Shown here: one piece after another, positions 22,350 through 34,652 of the stretch | Layout: the number at the start of each line of letters is the position of its first letter | Numbering within the stretch: position 1 is the stretch's first letter | Assembly (NCBI GenBank): GCA_039096225.1 | Contig: JBBPEB010000030.1 | Location: 124,001 to 188,000, forward strand | Reading direction: 5' to 3' | DNA length: 64,000 bases | Source of the DNA: Blastocystis sp. Blastoise | Taxonomy: Eukaryota > Sar > Bigyra > Opalinata > Blastocystidae | Made by a program: the position numbers and the translations under genes | Notes under the pieces: model-generated | Databases searched by the model: none | Seen by the model: the letters and a program-made list of their open reading frames with translations, nothing else | What the model was told of the DNA's origin: nothing

Positions 22350-26458
<4,109 letters not shown>

Positions 26459-27635: not shown

Positions 27636-28476
27636 TTAGTTGGATTGAGCGAATTCGAAGCTAACGTTTTTGTTGGTGAGCTTCTTGTAGATACAACTGA
27701 AAGTATCGAGCTTAGTTTCGACATCACCTTGATGAGCCTTATCTAAGAAGATCTTTTGGTGACGAGAAGCTTCGTTGCTGAGAATGGTTCTCTTACCAAC
27801 AATTTCAGAAGGATATACGAGATCATATAATAAGAATAGGATATAATATATGTTTTAAAAAATGTTATAAAAAGAGTATATGATATAATATTTACTATTA
27901 TAGAGAATAGAAATGTATAATAACAATAATAGCAATAATAAAAATAATAATAATGAGATCATCAAGAATAGCTTCTTGAACGGAGGTAAGGGTTCTAGAA
28001 CGAGGACGGATGGCATTAGCATTCTTAGATCTGCTGTAAGAAGTGCTTAAGATGGTTCTCTTAGCAATGAAAGCAACGGGGCGACCTCTAGAAATTTTAT
28101 ATAAATATAGCTTTCACATATAATAATTGCAAAAAAATAATGACTATATGAATTCATCCTTGAAAAAAAATAAAAATATTAAAATATATATATACTCGAA
28201 CTTCTTTTCAAGTTCAGTAATAAGACGGGATTGAACCTTTTGGAAAGCCTTACGAAGAGGATAAGGGACGAAGATGATAATGGCGTTCTTATCACCAGAA
28301 ACTTCAACTTCCTTAGCAGCAAGAATGTAAAGACCATTGATAGCCTTTTGAATATCCTTGTTAGCGTTTTGGATCTTAACGATTTCTTCAACGACCTTGG
28401 TTTCGAAAGCATCAGGAGATTGCTTACCAGCCTTGACGATCTTTACATTGACAACTTCAGTAGCAACGTTGGACAT
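27636..28476 (-). CDS. RPS7: 40S ribosomal protein eS7
   Basis: eS7 is a small-subunit ribosomal protein. The 198 residues (human 194) come from 28476-28196, 28087-27955 and 27818-27636. Clear family blocks are VPYPLRKAFQKVQSRL with ITELEKKF, GRPVAFIAKRTIL, RPRSRTLTSVQEAILDDL, VYPSEIVGKR, LDKAHQGDVETKLDTF and YKKLTNKNVSFEF. Intron 1 (28195-28088) is an ordinary GT-AG intron. The second interruption is not: the protein must run DDL-VYPSEIVG, yet 136 bases separate the two parts, with no GT-AG pair and with the direct repeat GAGATCAT (plus strand) at both borders. Confidence 0.97.
27819..27962 (-). other. Splice-site-free intervening sequence in RPS7 bounded by an 8-bp direct repeat
   Basis: On the plus strand GAGATCAT lies at 27819-27826 and 27955-27962, a 136-base period. 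No sliding of the borders within the repeat gives GT-AG, GC-AG or AT-AC ends. Read as coding sequence the insert meets stop codons, so it must be absent from functional mRNA or be an assembly artefact. Confidence 0.75.
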
Positions 28477-33235: not shown

Positions 33236-34652
33236 ATGAATATAGAAAATATATCCGAAAATGATAATACTACTAGTATTCCCCTTCCTGATCTTGATAT
33301 TCTTGATTCTAATTTAACCCTAAATCAAGTTCTGAATCATCCTGAAGTTGAGAAAGAAAGAAGTCCTAGAAAGAAGTCCTGTGCTATAAGAAAAGTGTTT
33401 AATGGAAAGAATGGTATGAAGAAATTATCCTTATCTAGTATTAGTGCTATCACTAAAGTGTCTCCGTCTACAATAAAACGTTCTGAATGAAGATGTATCA
33501 CTTAATAATCGTGGTAATCAACATGTTCTTAATGAAAATGAAGAAGTAGAAATAATAGAATGGATTAAGTCACAAATTAATGTGAATAACTGTCCTTCGA
33601 AGAATGAAATAGCTGAAGAAATACGTAAGAGATCAATTGAAAGGTGTCGAAACGGTATTGGCTGTATGATTACTGTATCAGAAGGGTATGTAAGGAAGCT
33701 GCTTAAAAAGAATAATATTCTATTGAAAAGACCACTAACAAATTATGAAGAAAAAGCTAGACCAACAAAGAAAGATGCAAAGATACTGTATAGGAATATT
33801 CATTATGTAATAAATAAAAGAAAAATCAAAACTTCTCTTATATTCAACATGGATGAGTCATGGGTTACTCCTGGTGATAAAAGATCAAGAGTTACTGTTG
33901 CAGTTGATAATGATCATTTACCAATAACAAAACAAGGTAATAGTGTTACTCATACAACACTAATTGGTTGTATTTGTGCTGATGGTACTGCAGTTCCTTC
34001 CTCTTATGTTGTTGATCGAGATACTTATAATATTAAAGAAATAGATAAGCAAAATCTGTCCTATATAAAAGTATGGTCTGCTAAGTCTGGATGGATAAAT
34101 GCACATGTGTTATACTCATGGATTCAAGATGTTTTTCTTCCATATGTTAATAAAAAGAGAAAAGATATGAATCTTGATAGTACTAATGATTATTGTCTAC
34201 TTATTCTTGATGCTCATACAACACGTAATGATACTGATTTTCTTAGTTTATGTGAGAATAACCGTATTGATGTAATTGTACTTCCAAAAAATACTACTAG
34301 TGTCTTTCAACCGCTTGATTTAGTTATATACAATGTATATAAATCAAAATTTAGAAGATATTATAAAACAACAAATAGATATTCGTTATTAGCAGCATCT
34401 GAGGATGCTTTTAGTGAAGCTTTTACAAGAAGAAATATTTTAAGTGCATGGCAAGCTTCGAGACTTCTTATTGATGATGAGAATGAGTTTATCAAGGATT
34501 TTGATGATCGTCCCCGTAGTAAAGTAACTAGAAAATCATCTAAAGTGTCAAATAAAATCTTAACTAATATCAATAGAGAAATGATGGAGGATGAATTTAG
34601 TGATAAACTTGATAATACTGTTTCAGAAGATGAAATAATAGTTAATGAATAA
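33236..34652 (+). pseudogene. pogo/Tigger-type DDE transposase with one frameshift
   Basis: The N-terminal 84 residues (33236-33490) contain a basic helix-turn-helix start (LSLSSISAITKVSPSTIKR). The frame is then lost by one base near 33478. Coding continues in the +1 frame (VLNEDVSLNNRG...) into the 356-residue catalytic part from 33582 to 34652. That part has the DDE_1 signatures: FNMDESWVTPGD (first Asp), LLILDAHTTRND (second Asp) and VLPKNTTSVFQPLDLVIYN (third acidic residue), followed by an acidic tail. The shift could be inactivation, a sequence error, or +1 frameshifting at AAAACGTTC. All catalytic motifs are intact. Confidence 0.9.

Follow-up and report, generated by a model that had tools for sequence, protein, structure and literature searches.

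A repeat-bounded insert with non-GT-AG borders in the eS7 gene of Blastocystis sp. Blastoise, and similar inserts in other conserved genes

The window analysed here is a stretch of 64,000 nucleotides (C20:124001-188000) from the genome of Blastocystis sp. Blastoise (taxid 3128533; Opalinata, stramenopiles), which comprises 33.3 Mb in 34 contigs. Its minus strand carries the gene encoding the ribosomal protein eS7 (RPS7; 27636..28476), in three exons (28196-28476, 27955-28087 and 27636-27818). The first two exons are separated by an ordinary intron (28088-28195; GTATAT...CTAG), the only other intron of the gene, which agrees with the initial annotation in describing nearby introns as ordinary. 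Between exons 2 and 3 lies a non-GT-AG insert of 136 bases (27819-27954, in the register where exon 2 retains the upstream copy of the repeat). This insert is framed by two copies of the direct repeat ATGATCTC, one at the end of exon 2 (27955-27962, upstream in gene orientation) and the other directly before exon 3 (27819-27826, downstream). On the plus strand, the repeat reads GAGATCAT at the same two places, with a spacing of 136 bases, and it does not extend beyond 8 bp on either side. The anatomy first proposed for this interruption was reproduced exactly. Directly after the repeat, exon 3 starts with GTATATCC (27809-27818, minus strand), which is donor-like and encodes VYP.

In gene orientation, the reading frame runs to ...AILDDL, enters the insert and resumes at VYPSEIVGKR. 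The insert (14% GC) has a length of 1 modulo 3 and contains stops, as had been reported: the first stop in the frame read from exon 2 comes after 18 codons, and the single stop-free frame of the three is not the one read into. The nine possible registers of the insert start and end with AT-AT, TG-TA, GA-AT, AT-TG, TC-GA, CT-AT, TC-TC, CA-CT and AT-TC. The initial annotation had excluded GT-AG, GC-AG and AT-AC borders; none of these, nor GA-AG, was found in any of the nine registers. No join giving the conserved protein therefore has GT-AG, GC-AG or GA-AG borders of the U2 type, and no register at the join is AT-AC, as for a U12-type intron (the U12 donor motif being ATATCCTT). Alternative paths were searched with donors allowed from the start of exon 2 to 110 nt inside the insert, and with acceptors allowed in the last 110 nt of the insert and throughout exon 3. 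The nearest in-frame GT-AG path loses 54 nt (18 residues around the join), the nearest GC-AG path 45 nt and the nearest GA-AG path 33 nt, while the nearest AT-AC path gains 33 nt.

A protein search of the genome found eS7 only once, as three pieces, so the insert has to be removed or bypassed. The junction had been described as conserved, and the repeat-to-repeat join is indeed gapless against eS7 proteins in two PDB alignments, among the matches listed. The joined frame encodes a protein 100% identical, over 198 residues, to the deposited "hypothetical protein" WA158_004927 of Blastocystis sp. Blastoise. The deposited model thus uses the repeat-to-repeat join, although no standard intron path yields that protein. 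As evidence of a join in RNA, this model is only suggestive, since the deposited models of two other genes described below, eL8 (WA158_004911) and G6PD (WA158_004945), follow GT-AG paths where repeat-bounded inserts lie, and the annotation is therefore not a uniform record of RNA. Deposited eL8 lacks 6 residues net, with T in place of SLNKNEA, and deposited G6PD lacks 18 and 16 residues, in each case matching the GT-AG paths. The missing residues are kept in relatives, for example in Blastocystis DL for eL8 and in Blastocystis BT1 for G6PD.

Further inserts were sought in 254.5 kb (C20:1-254500) and in 16 other genes with a codon-based gene finder, which allows GT-AG introns, accepts introns with any border at a higher price and is blind to repeats; all its introns are predictions. 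At its first setting, the finder made ten any-border calls within the window. One recovers the eS7 insert, although at 97 nt rather than 136 its borders are misplaced, and its exact join is the one given by the initial annotation; another corresponds to the interruption that comes first in a SERCA-type gene. The remaining eight are 20-28 nt long or lie in models that were left aside. A 21-nt GT-AG intron called inside the SERCA gene was considered spurious. For C20:1-254500, we kept introns with coding signal on both sides and a GC content below 25%, i.e. 348 introns, 304 GT-AG and 44 any-border. Seven of these 44 calls (eS7, SERCA, eL8, gamma-carbonic anhydrase, Brr2 and two in G6PD) were settled with conserved relatives and retained, and CCT-beta was added from the chaperonin set described below. 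The other 37 were put aside by eye as low-complexity, antisense, mobile-element-like or without a conserved relative at hand. The set thus holds only eight cases, which we selected ourselves from any-border calls through conserved relatives.

Among these 37 calls are two interruptions on the minus strand (C20 207507-207672 and 208161-208220) of a gene that we take to be ABC-transporter-like, with no GT-AG join and no clear in-frame repeat by eye. Another (C20:248920-249099, minus strand) fits by eye a U12-type AT-AC intron, with ATATCCTTT at its donor. An insert with an 8-bp repeat at C20:108522-108609 was discarded because its repeat join is out of frame. A scan starting from repeats was given up for excess chance matches, as the inserts it returned contained exons. 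After retraining of the codon model, 109 GT-AG and 8 any-border introns were kept, and only one of the eight inserts (gamma-carbonic anhydrase) survived, eS7 and SERCA being lost; we judged that the retrained model had drifted and used the first one, a choice that favours our reading.

The eS7 insert is not a one-off, as a similar arrangement recurs in several conserved genes. Beyond eS7, six inserts were found (in SERCA, CCT-beta, eL8 and gamma-carbonic anhydrase, and two in G6PD), plus one in Brr2 that can also be read as GA-AG. The gene encoding the SERCA-type calcium ATPase (22350..26458, plus strand) contains, besides seven GT-AG introns, a single repeat-bounded insert of 140 bases (22933..23072, plus strand), which a join between the two copies of TATTAAAAG (at 22924-22932 and at 23064-23072, plus strand) would take out. 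This join leaves the gene open and aligns without gaps to SERCA1a. In CCT-beta, the repeat is GCTAAGTT (8 bp); the join is gapless in the alignment listed, as are those of gamma-carbonic anhydrase and eL8 (gene at C20:99451-100592, one insert). Alternative paths exist for CCT-beta (GC-AG, two residues short) and for eL8 (AT-AC, one residue short). For the two inserts of G6PD (gene at C20:222393-225107), the first join is gapless against Blastocystis BT1 and the second is one residue shorter than the relative. The Brr2 interruption (C20:119325-119402, minus strand) has an exact GA-AG path giving the protein, with GAATATA common to the donor and the following exon; its alignment covers only the sequence before the join. 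GA-AG introns have been described in Blastocystis ST1, so that Brr2, which has such a register in plain form, needs no new explanation.

The exact repeats measure 8 bp in eS7, 9 bp in SERCA, 8 bp in CCT-beta, 7 bp in gamma-carbonic anhydrase, in the first G6PD insert and in Brr2, and 4 bp in eL8 and in the second G6PD insert. An exact repeat of 7-9 bp therefore stands at the join of six of the eight inserts, versus 1 of 362 predicted GT-AG junctions with a repeat of at least 7 bp (Fisher p = 6e-11), a count that is unchanged when every join of the same length and same protein is permitted. The excess persists without Brr2 (5 of 7; p = 2e-9) and among eS7, SERCA, CCT-beta, eL8 and the first G6PD insert (4 of 5; p = 3e-8). 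Repeats of 4 bp, as in eL8 and in the second G6PD insert, are reached at 35 of the 362 GT-AG junctions. In a looser search, taking the best repeat up to 12 bases from the border, 84 of 362 GT-AG introns have at least 7 bp, so that a repeat counts as evidence only where it lies at the join giving the correct protein.

To estimate the frequency of such inserts, nine chaperonin and seven proteasome genes were picked regardless of their introns. These genes contain 58 and 19 GT-AG introns, respectively, and a single repeat-bounded insert, in CCT-beta, i.e. 1 of 78 introns (95% interval 0.03 to 7%), eight more any-border calls, located at the termini of models, being left uncounted. The class would thus represent roughly 1% of the introns of Blastoise. 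Its members are AT-rich, lie in protein-coding genes, have no fixed border dinucleotides and occur alongside ordinary GT-AG introns.

In length and composition, the eight inserts (72-174 bp, 6-14% GC) resemble the GT-AG introns (median 122 bp, mean 13% GC), although the likeness in GC is partly built in by the GC filter. On the sense strand, T exceeds A in all eight inserts (sign test, 0.004), slightly so in three of them, and 86% of 352 predicted GT-AG introns likewise have a T excess. Moreover, seven of the eight inserts start with GTAT or end with [ATC]TAG in some register, against 3.9 expected from shuffles in which the end bases were held (P = 0.007). The insert of eS7 is the only one of the eight without an ordinary splice motif in any register. 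Insert length, strand asymmetry and half-canonical borders all favour removal from RNA.

Secondary structure was examined in nine inserts, the eight retained plus the one discarded for its out-of-frame repeat join. End pairing is absent from eS7 (z = +1.2, no closing pairs), which departs from the euglenid type of intron. Two of the nine inserts are exceptional, those of gamma-carbonic anhydrase (z = -2.3) and CCT-beta (z = -2.8); the other seven do not exceed the background given by 66 GT-AG introns (standard deviation of z, 1.3; 29% with closing pairs). Inverted repeats of 8-20 nt were not found at the ends of the eS7 insert, where the longest measures 4 nt. CCT-beta has an end inverted repeat of 11 nt, matched by none of 200 shuffles, and eL8 one of 10 nt, matched by 11 of 200. 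The genome search revealed no close duplicate of either the eS7 or the eL8 insert. The eS7 insert gave 63 other matches, AT-rich, partial and 70-95% identical (the best, 76% over 128 bases); the seven that were inspected are mainly ATT-type repeats, two of them (L005 and L007) sharing somewhat less simple stretches. The eL8 insert gave nine other genome matches, AT-rich, partial and 71-79% identical. A search for a shared end motif returned 8 matches to the eS7-end pattern, eS7 included, versus 9 for the reversed control.

From these observations, we infer, with a probability of about three in four, that the eS7 insert belongs to a minor class of repeat-bounded, non-GT-AG, intron-like elements that are removed from the pre-mRNA. 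Of the three options raised by the initial annotation, a non-canonical intron is accordingly the best supported. In the mechanism that we propose, an insertion, transposon-type or through break repair, would have duplicated a few target bases and so created the two copies of the repeat. The transcript would carry both copies, and cutting at matching points would restore the exon with one copy left. With the repeat present, any matching pair of cuts gives the same mRNA, and the exact borders need not be fixed. More probably than not, removal would be the work of the spliceosome, with less stringent recognition of one splice site or of both. We consider the spliceosome, acting where one site is weak or missing, the probable remover of the inserts, and eS7, without any motif, is the hardest case for it.

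The genome holds two identical U1 copies with the ordinary 5' end AUACUUACCU, whose presence, with that of the U12 candidate described below, speaks for our reading; both being identical and of usual type, no variant U1 was found that would explain the borders. A third, weak match is not U1. A U12 candidate scores 46.8 bits, under the curated cut-off of 53 bits, and the search for U2AF returned exon-level RRM matches only.

Alternatively, the inserts could be cleaved and ligated at the RNA level independently of the spliceosome, guided by their repeats or by structure, with the half-canonical inserts still going through the spliceosome. As one form of RNA-level removal, this route is counted within the odds given above, and we regard it as a minority possibility. 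The lack of a splice motif in any eS7 register speaks for it, and such a route has been proposed for noncanonical introns with direct repeats, those of diplonemids included, in the portion of the literature covered here (PMC12621601). However, neither eS7 nor most of the nine inserts examined have the end pairing that would set them apart from the background. The initial annotation had suggested that two removal routes may coexist, which is possible, since GT-AG introns and repeat-bounded non-GT-AG inserts occur in the same genes (eS7, SERCA, CCT-beta, eL8, gamma-carbonic anhydrase and G6PD). It is doubtful that a second, repeat-guided route, independent of dinucleotides and perhaps of the spliceosome, serves inserts in essential genes that may run to hundreds, a figure extrapolated from few cases; eS7 would be its cleanest example.

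Elimination at the DNA level, the second option initially raised, is less probable still and we consider it unlikely. The inserts would then be internally eliminated sequences, with the repeats as pointers, and the assembly would represent the unexcised form. Pointer-bearing eliminated elements of ciliates are bounded by repeats, rich in AT and without conserved ends, and their excision restores reading frames precisely, all of which holds for the inserts described here. However, a T excess in every insert and one-sided splice motifs in all but eS7 are not expected of DNA lost before transcription, and together with insert length they favour RNA. In addition, the inserts are kept in the assembly, and the only piggyBac-type match in the genome is barely above the cut-off (23.2 vs. 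22.4 bits).

An assembly error, or a heterozygous insertion inactivating one copy of the gene, is very improbable. The pattern recurs in eS7, SERCA, CCT-beta, eL8, gamma-carbonic anhydrase and G6PD, where the products of joining are open, a single eS7 was found, and the depositors' eS7 protein lacks the insert. The third option of the initial annotation, a recent insertion in one allele, is unlikely, as six other inserts in five other genes have the same arrangement and eS7 was found only once. Finally, programmed bypassing, with the insert retained in the mRNA and skipped by ribosomes between take-off and landing codons in the repeat, would account for identical codons on both flanks of a non-coding stretch but is highly improbable, as the inserts are intron-like in length and T excess, several genes would need hopping, and to our knowledge hopping is known only for shorter gaps, in other systems.

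Introns without GT-AG borders but bounded by direct repeats have already been reported in euglenids, diplonemids and Amoebophrya; the comparisons that follow concern the portions of the cited papers covered here. In Amoebophrya, more than 60% of introns are non-canonical with variable borders, beside canonical ones; part of them have direct repeats of 3-5 nt at their boundaries and inverted repeats of 8-20 nt, and a transposable-element-like spread has been proposed for its introners (PMC7789003). The Blastoise class shares the variable non-GT-AG borders, the boundary direct repeat (found in eS7) and the canonical introns alongside, but it is rare (1/78), its repeats are mostly 7-9 bp and inverted repeats are rare. 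Euglenids have nonconventional and intermediate introns, some with one canonical border, beside conventional introns, and a recently gained intron of gapC has an 8-nt direct repeat (PMC4770533). Variable non-canonical borders are likewise found in eS7, whereas the RNA structure joining euglenid intron ends is not seen in eS7 or in most other Blastoise inserts. In hemistasiid diplonemids, noncanonical introns are the majority and their ends are strongly base-paired, with spliceosome components present, and short direct repeats are cited for euglenozoan noncanonical introns (PMC12621601). The Blastoise inserts resemble them in lacking GT-AG in a genome with spliceosome components, but have neither strong end pairing nor a majority share.

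Introners are genic insertions with target duplications of 3-9 bp that act as introns, some of which co-opt splice sites at the insertion site (PMC9860276). The likeness would lie in insertions with target duplications acting as introns; introners, however, form sequence families spliced at defined sites, and the eS7 insert has no ordinary site in any register, nor was a close copy of it found. In Fritillaria, non-GT/AG introns reach 95% and are attributed to an altered major spliceosome, U2AF being duplicated (PMC13326754); the introns are non-GT/AG in both cases, but rare in Blastoise. Within the same genus, Blastocystis ST1 has GC-AG, GA-AG and U12 introns as minor categories (PMC5608401). 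The GA-AG register of Brr2 fits there, but these borders do not fit eS7, and direct repeats are unmentioned in the portion of that paper covered here. The class of Blastoise is thus set apart by its rarity, by repeats mostly longer than those of Amoebophrya and by the lack of end pairing in most members. Our literature search, which drew on parts of papers, found no description of it for Blastocystis; preprints were outside its scope and few subscription papers were covered, so novelty is not proven. With otherwise regular GTATAT...TAG introns, a U1 of ordinary type and indications of a minor spliceosome, Blastoise, a stramenopile from the gut, would be a cleaner system for studying the recognition and removal of such inserts, which would also serve the question of how new introns begin. 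In practical terms, the models deposited for G6PD and eL8, which follow GT-AG paths, drop residues kept by relatives.

As to the origin of the inserts, hAT and MULE transposases have at least 32 and at least 28 matches in the genome, respectively. Many of them have equal scores and long open frames, suggesting from sequence that these elements may have been active recently in Blastoise. Target duplications measure about 8 bp for hAT and about 9 bp for MULE elements, which would fit an origin of this kind, the repeats of the inserts being 8, 9, 8, 7, 7, 7, 4 and 4 bp long. Paired ends sought for one hAT copy and one MULE copy turned up one and four candidates, respectively, with one in a control, and none was convincing. 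In the window, an open frame at 33477-34649 encodes a DDE_1 endonuclease domain of transposases. Near the contig end, C20:3400-42800 contains four long frames of about 1560-1680 amino acids, two per strand and each adjoining a shorter frame, which look like repeated mobile elements.
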